A DNA stretch of 64,000 bases. Origin: Hydrocarboniphaga daqingensis. Its GTDB lineage: Bacteria; Pseudomonadota; Gammaproteobacteria; Nevskiales; Nevskiaceae. The notes under the pieces were generated by a model, which was given only the letters and a program-made list of their open reading frames with translations, made no database searches and had not been told where the DNA came from. Shown here piece by piece: positions 57,992 to 64,000 of the stretch. The stretch covers positions 428,641 to 492,640 of the forward strand of contig NZ_FQWZ01000002.1 of the NCBI RefSeq assembly GCF_900129825.1, written 5' to 3'. Position 1 is the first letter of the stretch, and each line of letters opens with the position of its first letter. The position numbers were made by a program, and so were the translations under genes.

Positions 57992-58942
57992 TCAGTTCAA
58001 GTCTGCAAATCGATCCGTTGCCGCAACCAGACGCGACAGGATGCCCGGCTCGCTGGCCGCATGGCCGGCGTCGGCGACGATTTGAAGGTCTGCCTCGGGC
58101 CAGGCGCGGTGCAGGTCCCAGGCCGACCGTAGTGGACAGACCACGTCGTAGCGGCCTTGCACGATCACCCCCGGAATGTGACGGATGCGGTAGGCATCTT
58201 CCAGCAACTGGTCGGGCGAGCGGAAGAAGCCGCCGTTGACGAAGTAGTGACATTCGATGCGCGCGAATGCCTCCGCAAACCGGTCTTCACCGAAGCGCTG
58301 CACCATGTCGCGACTCGGCAGCAGCTTGCTGGTCGCGCCCTCCCAGATGCTCCAGGCGCGTGCGGCTTCGCGACGCTCGTCGACGCGTTCGCTGGTCAGT
58401 CGGCGGTGGTAGGCGCTGACCATGTCGCCGCGTTCTTCCTTCGGAATCGGCCGCAGGAAATGCTCCCAGGCATCGGGGAAGATCCAGCTGGCACCCTCCT
58501 GATAAAACCAGCGAATTTCGGCCGGGCGGAGCAGGAAGATGCCGCGCAGGATCAGCGCCCGAGTGTGGTCGGGATGGGTCTGCGCATAGGCCAGCGCCAG
58601 CGTCGAACCCCAGGAGCCGCCGAACACGACCCAGCGGTCAATCCCCAGCAGCTTGCGGATTTGCTCCATGTCGCTGACCAGATCCCAAGTCGTGTTCTCG
58701 GCCAGCTCGGCGTGCGGCGTCGACCGGCCGCAGCCGCGCTGGTCGAACAGCACGATCCGATAGGCTTGCGGATTGAAAAACTGACGATGCCAGGGCTCGG
58801 TGCCGCCACCAGGGCCGCCGTGGACGAAGATCACTGGTTTGCCGCGCGGATTGCCGCATTCCTCGACATGGATTTCGTGCAGATCGGAGACTTTGAGGCG
58901 GTGAGTCTTGTACGGCTCGATCGCGGGGTAGGGCTGGGCCAT
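57992..58942 (-). CDS. pip: Prolyl iminopeptidase
   Basis: A 316-residue serine peptidase of the alpha/beta-hydrolase S33 family that removes N-terminal proline. Oxyanion motif VHGGPGGG, DQRGCGRS (Asp/Arg signature) and nucleophile elbow GGSWGSTLAL with the active Ser. Catalytic Asp and His are in GRYDVVCP and DAGHAASEPG near the C terminus. Start ATG 58942 (MAQPYPAIEPY) is the standard form; the upstream frame to 59086 is not family-like. Divergent from mltD. Confidence 0.96.
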   Translation of the reverse strand: MAQPYPAIEPYKTHRLKVSDLHEIHVEECGNPRGKPVIFVHGGPGGGTEPWHRQFFNPQAYRIVLFDQRGCGRSTPHAELAENTTWDLVSDMEQIRKLLGIDRWVVFGGSWGSTLALAYAQTHPDHTRALILRGIFLLRPAEIRWFYQEGASWIFPDAWEHFLRPIPKEERGDMVSAYHRRLTSERVDERREAARAWSIWEGATSKLLPSRDMVQRFGEDRFAEAFARIECHYFVNGGFFRSPDQLLEDAYRIRHIPGVIVQGRYDVVCPLRSAWDLHRAWPEADLQIVADAGHAASEPGILSRLVAATDRFADLN

Positions 58943-59149: not shown

Positions 59150-60898
59150 GTGGCTGCTCAGTTTGTGCGTGTTTTGACGATTTCGGCACTGTTGGCTGCG
59201 GTCGGAGTGGCAGCGGCGCAGTCGCCGGATCAAGAGCCGTCGGCCGTTATGGCGCCGGCTGAATCTCCGTCGCCCGCTGCCGATGCGCCCGACGCCCCAG
59301 CGTCACCGACGACGACGGCTCCCGCTCCGATCGACGAGCACTTGTTCCCACGCTACGAGGTGCTCAAGCCCAACGTTGCGTTCTGGACCAAGGTGTTCAG
59401 CCAATGGTCGGAGCATCAGAGCGCGGTGCATTCGACGCAGTACCCGAACAAGGTGTTCGAGCTGCTGGACTTCCGCGGCGAAGCGCGGGAGCTGAGCGCC
59501 GGCCAGCTGGCGCGATACAAGGCCGACGCCGAATCCGATGCCAAGGCGCGCGTCGACCGGCTGCTGCGCCAGGTGCACGAGTTGCGCAACGCGCCTGACC
59601 AGATGAACGAGCAACAGCGTCGCGTCTACCAGATGTTTGCCGACGTGCGCAGCGACAACCGCTTTCTCGATGCGGTCGGTACGTTCCGCGCCCAGCGAGG
59701 GCTCAAGGAACGCACCGCCGTGGCGCTGGAAACCTCGGGCAGCTACCTGCCGGAGATGGAAAGCATCTTCGGCCGCTATCGCCTGCCGCTGCAGCTGACG
59801 CGCCTGCCGCTGGTGGAATCGAGCTTCAACGTTGATGCGTATTCTAAGGTCGGCGCCGCTGGGCTTTGGCAGTTCATTCCGTCGAGCGCCAAGATCTACA
59901 TGCGGCTCAACGAGCTGGTCGACGATCGCCGTGATCCGTGGACCAGCACCGACGCTGCTGCGCGTCACTTGCGCGACGACTACGCAGCGCTCGGTAGCTG
60001 GCCGCTCGCGCTGACCGCCTACAACCACGGCCGCGGCGGGATCGCGCGCGGCTTGCGCGAAACCGGCGGCTCGGCGCTGCCTGACCTGATCGCGCGCTAC
60101 GACGCCAAGAGCTTTGGCTTTGCGTCGCGCAACTTCTACGCGGAGTTCCTGGCTGCTACCGACGTGGAACGCAACTGGAAGCAGCATTTCGGCGAGATCC
60201 GTCGCCGCGACGCGTTGCGCTTCGACACGGTCGAAACCAAGAACTATGTTCCGTATGACACCTTGCGCCGCTTGTGCGATGCCGACGACGAGGTATTCCG
60301 CCGTTTGAATCCGGCATATCGCCCCGAGGTGATTGAAGGCAAGTTGTACGTGCCTCCGGGCCATGTGATTCGCGTGCCGGCAGGCCGCGCCGACGCGTTC
60401 AACGTGGCCTACGCCAAGCTCGGCAGTTCAGAACGCTTTGATGCGCAGCGCAGCTTTTTCCTGCTGCATAAAGTCGGCAAGGGCGACAGCCTCGGCAAGA
60501 TCGCGCGTCGCTACGGCGTGCCGCAGGCCGCGATCAAGAGCGCCAACGGGCTGAAGGATGCGTCCAAGCTCAAGCTCGGCCAGGTGCTGAAAGTGCCGCC
60601 GCGCGAAGAAAGCCGGCCGGGCCCGGTGGTCGTCGCCGTCGGCGAATCCAAGCCGACGCTGACTCGCGACCAGACCGTCGCTGCCGTCACCGAGCGGGTC
60701 CGCAGCGAGGCTGCTGTATCGTCGCCGCGCGGCAAGCGCGTGGCCGTGGCGCGCTTGCACAAGGTGCGCAGCGGACAGACGCTCGGCGAGATTGCCAAGC
60801 GCTACAAGGTCAGTGTCGCGGAGCTGCGCTCGGCCAACGGCCTGAACGAGAAGGGGCACATCCGCGTCGGGCAGCAGCTGAAGATTCCGGCCAGCTGA
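59150..60898 (+). CDS. mltD: MltD, membrane-bound lytic murein transglycosylase with LysM repeats
   Basis: A 582-residue cell-wall lytic enzyme. Signal peptide near the N terminus (FVRVLTISALLAAVGVAAAQ). SLT domain at about 200-330: LPLVESSFNVDAYSKVGAAG has the catalytic Glu near residue 223, and GLWQFIPSSA follows. Two LysM domains at about 440-485 (KVGKGDSLGKIARRYGVPQAAIKSANGL) and 538-582 (KVRSGQTLGEIAKRYKVSVAELRSANGL). A GTG at 59150 with GGAG eight bases upstream gives a sensible N terminus; an ATG at 59081 is open but without signal. Divergent from pip. Confidence 0.93.
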   Translation: MAAQFVRVLTISALLAAVGVAAAQSPDQEPSAVMAPAESPSPAADAPDAPASPTTTAPAPIDEHLFPRYEVLKPNVAFWTKVFSQWSEHQSAVHSTQYPNKVFELLDFRGEARELSAGQLARYKADAESDAKARVDRLLRQVHELRNAPDQMNEQQRRVYQMFADVRSDNRFLDAVGTFRAQRGLKERTAVALETSGSYLPEMESIFGRYRLPLQLTRLPLVESSFNVDAYSKVGAAGLWQFIPSSAKIYMRLNELVDDRRDPWTSTDAAARHLRDDYAALGSWPLALTAYNHGRGGIARGLRETGGSALPDLIARYDAKSFGFASRNFYAEFLAATDVERNWKQHFGEIRRRDALRFDTVETKNYVPYDTLRRLCDADDEVFRRLNPAYRPEVIEGKLYVPPGHVIRVPAGRADAFNVAYAKLGSSERFDAQRSFFLLHKVGKGDSLGKIARRYGVPQAAIKSANGLKDASKLKLGQVLKVPPREESRPGPVVVAVGESKPTLTRDQTVAAVTERVRSEAAVSSPRGKRVAVARLHKVRSGQTLGEIAKRYKVSVAELRSANGLNEKGHIRVGQQLKIPAS

Positions 60899-60926: not shown

Positions 60927-61061
60927 CTAGCGCAGCAGGCCGATCACGCCGACGGCGATCAGATACAGCGCCACGACGTAGTTCAGTAGCTTGGGGCGGA
61001 TCAGGATCAAGACGCCGGCCAGCAGCGACAGCGTCGGAATCGGGTCGAGGTGCAGGGTCAT
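60927..61061 (-). CDS. DUF3096 small membrane protein, 44 aa
   Basis: A 44-residue ORF too short for standard tracks. It reads MTLHLDPIPTLSLLAGVLIL then IRPKLLNYVVALYLIAVGVI, two hydrophobic segments and the family wording LHLDPIPTLSLLAG of DUF3096. It is the last gene of the mprF-acvB-DUF456 run, 39 bp after the DUF456 stop. Confidence 0.85.
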   Translation of the reverse strand: MTLHLDPIPTLSLLAGVLILIRPKLLNYVVALYLIAVGVIGLLR

Positions 61062-61100
61062 TGTTTGCGTCCTTGCAGCAACAGCATCGTGGCGCCTGGC

Positions 61101-61592
61101 TTACACCAGCCAGGCGAAGGCGAACACGCCGATCATCGCCAGGCCAATGGCGAGCTTGGCGATCGTACCGAGCAGCAGGCCGACCCAGGTGGCAACGCCC
61201 GAAGCAGCAGCCTGATCGAGCCCGCGACGTGCGCCCAGTTCGCCGATGACGGCGCCGATGAACGGCCCGAGTATCAGTCCGGGCAAGCCGAAGAAGATAC
61301 CCACCACGCTGCCCAGCGTGGCGCCGAGCACAGCCTTGGGGCTGGCGCCGACGCGCTTGGCACCCAGGCTGCCGGCAATGAAGTCGAGCGCCATGCCGAC
61401 GGCCAGCATCACGCCGAGGATGCCGAGCGTCCATTTGCCGACATGGACAAAGCCGTCGACCCAGGCGCCGAGCAGCAGCCCGCCGAATAGCATCGGCAGT
61501 CCGGGCAGCAACGGCAGCACGGCGCCGGCAAGGCCGCCGAGCACCAGCGCGATCGCCAGCAGTCCGAGCACCATCTGCAAGGTCGGGTCCAT
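61101..61592 (-). CDS. DUF456 membrane protein
   Basis: A 163-residue protein with about four membrane segments and the DUF456 pattern AVLPLLPGLPMLFGGLLLGAWVDGF and GSVVGIFFGLPGLILGPFIGA. Its ATG overlaps the acvB stop by one base (TGATG). Membrane protein of unknown function; it may help handle lipids with its operon partners. Confidence 0.87.
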   Translation of the reverse strand: MDPTLQMVLGLLAIALVLGGLAGAVLPLLPGLPMLFGGLLLGAWVDGFVHVGKWTLGILGVMLAVGMALDFIAGSLGAKRVGASPKAVLGATLGSVVGIFFGLPGLILGPFIGAVIGELGARRGLDQAAASGVATWVGLLLGTIAKLAIGLAMIGVFAFAWLV

Positions 61593-63013
61593 CAGCGCGC
61601 CTCCGGTGCTGACAGGCCGTCGATCAGCGTCTTGGCCAGCAGCGCGTAATTGCCCTCGAAATGATGGCTGCCCGGCAGAATCCGCATCCGATGACGCGCT
61701 GGGTCAAGCTCGGGACAGATTGCAGCATCGTCGTTCTGGCCGCAGATGATCAGCAGGTCCTGTGCGCCCGCAAGCTGATCGACTTCTGGTCGCGTCTCGA
61801 AGTCGCCGGCCTGGCCGGCCCAGGCGCCGACATGGAACTCGAAGGCCGCATGTTTCGACAGCGCGATGGCGGCCGTCAGCGTGATCTGCTGACGCAGGCT
61901 CGGCGGCATCCGGTTCAGCGCAAACGGCAGCACGTCCGCTCCCTGCGAGTAGCCGATCAGCATCACGCGAGGGCGCTTCCAGGTCTCGACGTAATGGTGG
62001 ATCAGCCGCCCGAGATCCAGCGCCACGTCGTCCGGCTTGCGCTCGGTCCAGAAGTAGCGGAGCGAGTCCAGCCCGACCACCGGGATGCCCTCGGCTGCGA
62101 GCCGGTCGGCGATCTCTTCATCCAGGCCGGCCCAGCCTCCGTCGCCCGACAGCAGCACCGCCAACAGGTCGCGATGGCTTGGATCATCACGGCTGGCGGC
62201 GACCTCGACCAGCGGCAGATCGGGTAAAGCCTCGGGCTTGCGATGGGCCGGGGCGATATTGGCTGCCAGTGTGCCGTAGGCCAGCAGCGCAGCACCGACC
62301 GCGCTCGGCGCGCCGGCTTGACGGCGAACCGGCCACCGCAGCTCGGCGCCGTCGACGCGGTTGGTGAAGTCGCGCGCGCCGCAGGCTTCGCTCGCTGGCG
62401 TCGCCACGGCAAAGAAGGGCGACTGCAAACGCGACGTTGGCAGGATCGTGCTGCCGCCGCCCGGCTCGTGACGCTGGCGCAGTCCAGTGCCCGCGCACAA
62501 AGGCGGCCGCAGCGGGCTGAACGGGCAAAAGCCCACGCCGACGCCGCCCGAAAAGCTCTTCGGCGGCGCTTGCGACAGCGCCCCGAACACCAGTGCGGCG
62601 GACTCGTCCAAGCCCATCAGCAGCGGCGGACGGTAGTCGTCCTGGCGTGTGTACGCCTGAACGAATCGGCTCAGGTTGTCGAGGTCGCCGTCGAGAAACT
62701 CGCAGTTGTCGCCGTCCTGCGCCAGCACCTTTAGCAACGCCGGCGTGTCGATGCCGGCGACCAGCGTTTTGCTGCTGCGCAGCGCCCTGGCATAAGCGTC
62801 CGCTTCGCGGTCCCAGCCCCGCTGGCTGGAAAACAGCAAGGCCGTGCTGCGCGCCGGGCCTTCGGGTTTGTACAGATACAGTGGCTTGAAGCGGCCGTGT
62901 TCGATGCGCTCGTCGCGGGCCGGGTCGGGTGGGCGTGACGCCAGTGCTGGCAGTGCCAGCAAGCCGGCAGCCAACGCCAGCGCGATGGCGGCAACCGAAG
63001 CCAAGCACTTCAT
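61592..63013 (-). CDS. acvB: AcvB/VirJ-family hydrolase (putative lysyl-phosphatidylglycerol hydrolase)
   Basis: A 473-residue exported hydrolase. Signal MKCLASVAAIALALAAGLLALPALA. The C-terminal VirJ domain (about 265-470) has LLSGDGGWAGLDEEIADRLAAEGIPVVGLDSLRYFW and the nucleophile elbow LIGYSQGADVLPF, plus LPGSHHFEGNYALLA with a catalytic-type His. In Agrobacterium, AcvB hydrolyses lysyl-phosphatidylglycerol. Its ATG overlaps the mprF stop by four bases (ATGA), so the synthase and hydrolase are co-made. Confidence 0.88.
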   Translation of the reverse strand: MKCLASVAAIALALAAGLLALPALASRPPDPARDERIEHGRFKPLYLYKPEGPARSTALLFSSQRGWDREADAYARALRSSKTLVAGIDTPALLKVLAQDGDNCEFLDGDLDNLSRFVQAYTRQDDYRPPLLMGLDESAALVFGALSQAPPKSFSGGVGVGFCPFSPLRPPLCAGTGLRQRHEPGGGSTILPTSRLQSPFFAVATPASEACGARDFTNRVDGAELRWPVRRQAGAPSAVGAALLAYGTLAANIAPAHRKPEALPDLPLVEVAASRDDPSHRDLLAVLLSGDGGWAGLDEEIADRLAAEGIPVVGLDSLRYFWTERKPDDVALDLGRLIHHYVETWKRPRVMLIGYSQGADVLPFALNRMPPSLRQQITLTAAIALSKHAAFEFHVGAWAGQAGDFETRPEVDQLAGAQDLLIICGQNDDAAICPELDPARHRMRILPGSHHFEGNYALLAKTLIDGLSAPEAR

Positions 63014-64000
63014 TTACGCACCATCTCGCGCATGCCACCGGCAATCAAGGTTGCGGTGTCGAGCATGATCCGCGGCAGAGCCAAGCCGCCGGGCGATGCC
63101 AGGTAACGGGGCCGCCATACCGGCTGATATTTGTCCTTGTACTTGCGCAAGCCGTCGAAGTTGTAGAACGGCCCCCCGTAGCGGTGCACCAGCAGACCCA
63201 GACGGTGCCATAGCGGCGCCAGCGGATGTTGTTCCAGCCCGGCCAGCGGCGCCATGCCGAGGTTGAACCACTGATAGCCGCGCGCCTTGCCCCATAGCAG
63301 CAACTCGACGAACAGATAATCCATGACGCCCTTGGGTGCGTCCTGGCCGTAACGCATCAGGTCCACCGACAGCTCGGTTCCGTCGCCCGATTGCCACAGA
63401 TTGGCGAAGGCCACGATCTGGTCGCCGCGCCGCGCGACCGCGCATGGAAAGTTCGCCAGATAGGCCGGGTCGAAGCGGCCGACCGAAAAGCTCTTTTCGG
63501 CCGCCGACTTGTCTGCAAGCCAAGCCGAGGAGACGCGTTCAAGCTCGTCGGCGCGCGCCGCGACTTGCCCCGGCTCTAGCACATCGAACACCAGGCCTTC
63601 GCGCGCGCCCTTGCGCTGCGACGTGCGCAATTCGCCACGGGCCTTGCCCTCCAGCGAGAACGTGGTCAGCGGCACTCGCGCTTCTTCGCCCAGCTTCGAC
63701 AGCGACAGGCCGAGATCCAGATAAAGCGGAAGCTTGTCGGCGGTGACCTGATAGAACACGCACCAACCGCTGTGTTTGTCGCAGAGTTCGCGGAAACGCC
63801 ATGCCAGTTCGGCATGACGGGCCGGGTTGCCGACCGGGTTGCCCATCGCGATCCAGCTGCGTCCCGATCGCCGATACATGATGAAGGCATCGCGCTGGTC
63901 GCTGAACAGCAGCTGCTTGTCGCCGAGCAACACCAGGTTGGGCACGCTGTCGGTGCCGTGGCCGAGACATTGACGCGCAGCTTCGATGTCATCGGCAGTC
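63010..64000 (-). CDS. mprF: MprF/LpiA-type phosphatidylglycerol lysyltransferase, C-terminal part (runs off the edge)
   Basis: The catalytic C-terminal domain of MprF, which transfers lysine (or alanine) from charged tRNA to phosphatidylglycerol. Family wording: FIMYRRSGRSWIAMGNPVG, RTSQRKGAREGLVFDVL, SSAWLADKSAAEKSFSVGRFD, GVMDYLFVELLLWGKARGYQWFNLGMAPLAGLE and FYNFDGLRKYKDKYQPVW. The 5' part, including membrane segments, lies outside the window. The frame remains open to the edge at 64000. It overlaps acvB by four bases at its 3' end. Confidence 0.9.
   Translation of the reverse strand, partial: TADDIEAARQCLGHGTDSVPNLVLLGDKQLLFSDQRDAFIMYRRSGRSWIAMGNPVGNPARHAELAWRFRELCDKHSGWCVFYQVTADKLPLYLDLGLSLSKLGEEARVPLTTFSLEGKARGELRTSQRKGAREGLVFDVLEPGQVAARADELERVSSAWLADKSAAEKSFSVGRFDPAYLANFPCAVARRGDQIVAFANLWQSGDGTELSVDLMRYGQDAPKGVMDYLFVELLLWGKARGYQWFNLGMAPLAGLEQHPLAPLWHRLGLLVHRYGGPFYNFDGLRKYKDKYQPVWRPRYLASPGGLALPRIMLDTATLIAGGMREMVRK

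Follow-up and report, generated by a model that had tools for sequence, protein, structure and literature searches.

In Agrobacterium tumefaciens, the gene of an MprF-type synthase/flippase, lpiA, is followed by the gene of the hydrolase AcvB in one operon (PMC13197417, PMC13135905), and the synthase and the hydrolase of lysyl-phosphatidylglycerol (lysyl-PG) are described as touching each other and acting in a coupled manner (PMC13197417). A pair of mprF and acvB genes also lies at the end of the 64,000-nucleotide stretch of Hydrocarboniphaga daqingensis DNA that we analysed (contig NZ_FQWZ01000002.1, positions 428,641 to 492,640; the window). Here acvB is trailed by genes for two small membrane proteins of the DUF456 and DUF3096 families, whereas neither family is mentioned in the accessible parts of PMC13197417 and PMC13135905. 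YqgC of Bacillus subtilis is likewise a DUF456 membrane protein of about 160 amino acids (aa) whose gene shares its transcript with a functionally different gene. Its partner is sodA, together with which it is tied to manganese tolerance; the double deletion is manganese-sensitive, and the accessible part of that report makes no link to aminoacyl-phosphatidylglycerol (aminoacyl-PG) (PMC11332163). RPA1050, which belongs to the DUF3096 family, appears in the accessible part of PMC13343836 only as a gene lowered by guanosine tetraphosphate (ppGpp) and is given no function there. Our literature search found no paper tying DUF456 or DUF3096 to mprF-acvB. From the comparison described below, we consider it likely that an ordinary aminoacyl-PG gene pair sits in a slot of an older locus, and that the DUF456 and DUF3096 genes belong to this locus instead of being dedicated parts of the lipid system.

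The operon-like order of the four genes is real. All of them lie on the minus strand and are transcribed in the order mprF, acvB, DUF456 gene and DUF3096 gene, where a sequence-only reading of the window had placed them. The window holds the 3' part of mprF (63010..64000; Pfam LPG_synthase_C, E 6.7e-97), which continues past the window edge; the complete gene, encoding 854 aa, is found at L003:5651-8215 of the assembly. The downstream acvB/virJ-type gene (61592..63013; Pfam VirJ, E 7.5e-62) encodes a predicted aminoacyl-PG hydrolase of 473 aa. It is followed by the gene of a 163-aa DUF456 membrane protein with five predicted helices (61101..61592; Pfam DUF456, E 2.7e-35) and by the gene of a small hydrophobic DUF3096 protein of 44 aa (60927..61061; Pfam DUF3096, E 5.5e-17), which was also correctly recognized in the sequence-only reading. 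The claimed overlaps were confirmed as well: mprF and acvB share 4 bp (63010-63013), and acvB and the DUF456 gene share 1 bp (position 61592). The spacing from the DUF456 gene to the DUF3096 gene is 39 bp. The 4-bp overlap (ATGA) is found again in many relatives. The 1-bp overlap is found in the window genome and in G149 only, and a gap of 7 to 98 bp separates acvB from DUF456 in the four other loci in which both genes were called. A search of genome contigs with AcvB gave three loci, all of them from Hydrocarboniphaga, and H. effusa AP103 shares the gene order of the window (L067). Judging from their position, DUF456 and DUF3096 are probably co-transcribed with acvB.

We mapped 85 loci by profile searches and found one conserved locus in the host order, which had first been noticed from called genes. 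It consists of tetR, a gene for a DUF3336-patatin phospholipase, a slot, DUF456 and/or DUF3096, a convergent mltD-like gene and pip. On the criterion that one or more flank genes were in view, mprF-acvB filled the slot in 30 loci (genera g1, g147, g150, g152, g153 and g154). The slot is empty in 13 loci, three in g148, one in g149 and nine in g151, where patatin or tetR directly adjoins DUF456 (G172, G173, G174, G176 and nine g151 genomes). In two further g151 loci (L142 and L218), DUF456 adjoins mltD, and patatin was not found. The acvB gene is absent from G174, G176, G182, G186 and G187, and the others of these genomes carry mprF-acvB elsewhere. Among the 30 filled slots, DUF456 is next to acvB in 9 and is missing from that place in 21, and DUF3096 lies on the same downstream side in 13. 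Adjacency of acvB to DUF456 was seen in three genera, and adjacency of acvB to DUF3096 also in three. The resident locus therefore exists without mprF-acvB, and the pair is present there without DUF456 in other genera. Since each half is retained in some relatives that lack the other, the small proteins appear to be neighbours of long standing, and not new components of the lipid system as had been suggested earlier. An older locus of envelope genes would then have the mprF-acvB pair in its slot.

In the window, the convergent flank is the gene of an MltD-like lytic transglycosylase with LysM repeats (59150..60898, plus strand; Pfam SLT and LysM), and the next gene out is pip, encoding prolyl aminopeptidase (57992..58942, minus strand; NCBIfam pro_imino_pep_1, E 9.3e-136). 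The MltD-like gene is located beyond DUF456/DUF3096 in relatives with as well as without mprF-acvB, and pip is likewise kept. Just past the other end of the window (L003:8457-10499), a TetR-type regulator gene divergent from mprF comes next, followed by one for a fatty-acid desaturase, so the neighbourhood of mprF is rich in membrane-lipid genes. In G193 (L129 and L130), acvB and DUF456 are separated by about 19 kb that include repeated gene families, whereas the two are adjacent in the sister genomes.

An RpoB tree was built from 23 of the 30 genomes; no RpoB match was obtained in G150, G177, G178, G198, G201, G168 and G203, which were left out. Its topology was ((g145,g144),(g153,((g147,g150),(g154,(g1,g148)),(g149,(g152,g151))))), in which the three-way split was not resolved. 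G195, whose upstream flank lies outside the sequence examined, is marked 'else' in the trees for that reason alone. The patatin tree agrees with RpoB, grouping g152, in which the slot is filled, with g151, in which it is empty (support 100/99). The DUF456 tree is compatible with RpoB over most genera, with g145 falling among g151. The MprF tree (59 rows), however, disagrees with RpoB. One lineage comprises the slot copies of g1, g147, g150 and g154 along with two copies from outside the slot (G178 and G185); another unites the slot copies from g152 and g153 with the non-slot copies of g151 and g148. A single clade of slot copies was rejected with a p-AU of 2.3e-47 (18 slot rows among 30), a value that is indicative because the row set was picked after the tree was seen. 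The discord of the MprF tree and the vertical-looking flanks indicate replacement of the pair, or its repeated arrival, at this one site. Local recombination via the shared flanks, shared regulation and selection for the neighbours all fit the occurrence of two MprF lineages in one slot.

If the small proteins belonged to the lipid system, their genes might be expected to accompany acvB. In the 85 genomes of the host order, DUF456 was not tied to acvB (20 of 51 genomes with acvB and 16 of 34 without, p 0.51), and neither was DUF3096 (25 of 51 and 16 of 34, p 1.0). Outside the host order, 22 co-occurrences over the cut-off (15 of DUF3096 and 7 of DUF456) were found in 55 VirJ-family genomes, and none of them was adjacent when coordinates were compared by eye; the two genes were either split between contigs or widely separated on a single contig. 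Linkage to mprF-acvB is thus not kept beyond one lineage.

The two small proteins exceed the cut-offs of their families, DUF456 with 122.1 bits (PF04306, cut-off 29.4) and DUF3096 with 61.6 bits (PF11295, cut-off 23.3). DUF456 has invariant Gly and Pro positions, and the AlphaFold2 model of the protein is composed of five helices with a mean predicted local distance difference test score of 91.5. Foldseek gave no match to this model with an E-value under 0.001, and the sequence gave no match to solved structures up to an E-value of 10. Fold relatives offered by a second structural comparison were rejected, with Z-scores of up to 7.2 lying in the chance range for helical bundles. No function can therefore be read from the fold, which has no convincing solved relative. 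As residents of the locus, DUF456 and DUF3096 would do their own membrane job, presumably independent of the lipid system.

Several observations speak against DUF456 and DUF3096 being only neighbours. We drew 397 genomes from the phylum, of which 56 had VirJ matches, and counted eight weak matches (G387, G467, G392, G403, G441, G450, G470 and G602) as being without acvB. In this 48-versus-349 split, DUF456 was present in 8 of the 48 acvB genomes and 8 of the 349 others (p 1.6e-4), and DUF3096 in 12 and 34 (p 0.006), values that are uncorrected for lineage and genome size. Counting all 56 matches gave p 5e-4 for DUF456 and 1.2e-4 for DUF3096, likewise uncorrected. When, in the 48-genome version, a genus was scored as positive if any member genome was, the numbers were 5/24 versus 8/208 genera for DUF456 and 10/24 versus 14/208 for DUF3096. 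Four of the eight phylum genomes with both DUF456 and acvB belong to one genus. Moreover, every linkage that we found is on the same strand and in one direction, from acvB to DUF456 to DUF3096, an arrangement that is also predicted by one ancestral order. Finally, selection for this neighbourhood might be the reason why a single slot is occupied by two MprF lineages.

It has thus to be considered whether DUF456, DUF3096 or both modulate aminoacyl-PG turnover in a lineage-specific way, having been recruited in Hydrocarboniphaga and its relatives, for example for docking of AcvB at the membrane or for tuning of MprF. The tight operon with its 1-bp overlap in two genomes, the adjacency of acvB to either family in three genera, always downstream and on the same strand, the phylum-level co-occurrence and the two MprF lineages would all suit such modulators. 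However, DUF456 is not beside acvB in 21 of 30 filled slots, DUF456 loci occur without mprF-acvB, and neither co-occurrence in the order nor adjacency outside it was found, so we regard this explanation as quite unlikely. We give even less credence to a functional home, in which two mprF-acvB lineages settled in front of DUF456 because DUF456, with DUF3096, helps to place or tune aminoacyl-PG in the membrane; if this were true, the two orphan families would be lineage-specific accessories of membrane-charge control. The slot may alternatively be a regulatory home, where mprF-acvB was kept or re-inserted for a promoter or a TetR-type regulator shared with envelope-lipid genes. Co-expression, not contact, would be what counts in that case, and this is compatible with DUF456 and DUF3096 being residents of the locus. 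The TetR-type regulator and fatty-acid desaturase genes beside mprF in the window genome, the DUF3336-patatin phospholipase gene in relatives and the two MprF lineages in one slot are in line with it, whereas filled and empty slots were not seen to have any inverted repeat with exact arms of at least 6 in common in their intergenic regions, and vertical retention with local replacement gives the same pattern. We therefore think that a regulatory home is unlikely. Taken together, the small genes are most likely neighbours of the lipid pair, and the hypothesis that they are its accessories is weakened.

The mprF-acvB genes themselves are a known kind of pair, predicted from their sequences to encode an aminoacyl-PG synthase/flippase and a periplasmic hydrolase. 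The part of mprF in the window matched the NCBIfam bifunc_MprF model over 522-840 of 841, and residues 16 to 853 of the 854-aa protein align with the full-length MprF structures 9w50, 9goe, 7f47 and 6lvf. The C-terminal aminoacyl-PG synthase domain and the N-terminal membrane flippase region are thus predicted to be present in one protein. Residues 38-468 of AcvB align with the AcvB structure 9xhm (E 9.3e-57), with the VirJ domain (PF06057) in a two-domain architecture, and a signal-like hydrophobic stretch inside residues 1-27 is a candidate export signal. In the alignment of 52 homologues with the 9xhn domain, AcvB keeps the catalytic-set residues Asp271, Ser336, Asp340 and His433 and the membrane-loop Trp378. 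Ser336, Asp271, Asp340 and Trp378 are common to the Agrobacterium protein, from which the window AcvB differs in having Ala for Asp370 and Ala for Leu379. The pairing of synthase and hydrolase proposed in the sequence-only reading is further borne out by near-perfect co-occurrence. Both genes are present in 50 of the 85 genomes of the host order, acvB alone in 1, mprF alone in 0 and neither in 34; in 45 of these 50 they are immediate neighbours on one strand, and coupling has been published for Agrobacterium (PMC13197417). VirJ was found in only 3 of 143 genomes of an even draw across the class, which was then set aside. MprF would transfer an amino acid from aminoacyl-tRNA to phosphatidylglycerol and then move the lipid to the outer leaflet, and periplasmic AcvB would remove the amino acid again. 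Translational coupling via the ATGA overlap may hold the two proteins in proportion.

Variants of the pair were also seen in relatives. In four genomes of one genus (G170, G155, G167 and G165; L139, L158, L159 and L213), MprF is encoded in two frames that overlap by ATGA. The first encodes about 308 aa of N-terminal membrane region and the second the remaining 547 aa; the occurrence in four genomes makes a sequencing error unlikely. In L201 and L202 (G196 and G198), a separate flippase-like frame of about 317-323 aa is located directly upstream of full-length mprF. L204 (G149) contains a second, divergent mprF with no acvB beside this copy. Unusual orders were found in L211 (G091), where acvB is ahead of mprF on one strand, and in L223 (G363), where mprF and acvB face each other on opposite strands.

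The sequence-only reading held that MprF makes and AcvB cuts lysyl-PG. Membership in the aminoacyl-PG enzyme families, the kept catalytic residues and the alignment with Agrobacterium AcvB over the whole mature length are in accordance with this; the residue at the lysine-selecting position is not. Asp370 of Agrobacterium AcvB has been assigned to lysine side-chain recognition, and Thr or Ser replaces it in makers of alanyl-PG (PMC13197417). In the window AcvB, position 370 is Ala and position 368 is His instead of Glu. After the truncated row G169 was dropped from the alignment, Asp370 was found in 8 of 51 readable homologues, six of these in genus g151, and in 0 of 30 slot copies. In addition, the isolated synthase domain in PDB that scored best against MprF was that of the alanyl-PG synthase 4v34 (322 bits), ahead of LpiA 6lv0 (286 bits) and the lysyl-PG synthase 4v36 (206 bits). 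PA0920-PA0919 of Pseudomonas aeruginosa, which we take to be a gene pair for an alanyl-PG synthase and hydrolase, resembles the pair here in its two functions, as predicted for the window, and in that position 370 is not Asp in either. Pseudomonas homologues are reported to carry Thr or Ser at that position (PMC13197417), whereas the window AcvB has Ala. Because Asp370 is replaced and the closest isolated synthase domain is of the alanyl-PG type, lysyl-PG is an assumption here. Lysine is no more likely than alanine or another amino acid, and it is doubtful that lysyl-PG is the lipid handled here, as it is in Agrobacterium. In the AcvB proteins of genus g151 (L126, L127, L128, L195, L196, L197, L198 and L199), Asn340 replaces the recognition Asp in all eight, and six have Asp370. 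This paired change at positions 340 and 370 could point to a different head group.

In conclusion, the mprF-acvB pair itself is already known, and this analysis is useful chiefly because it corrects an inference that is easily drawn. The close overlaps in a single genome point to a system of four parts, but comparison of empty and filled loci indicates that the two halves come and go separately. What is found is an ordinary system with one evolutionary puzzle, the presence of two MprF lineages in the same slot. The lipid of this lineage should be measured rather than presumed to be lysyl-PG. If the slot is selected and not merely inherited, it would provide a first handle on two membrane protein families without known function.

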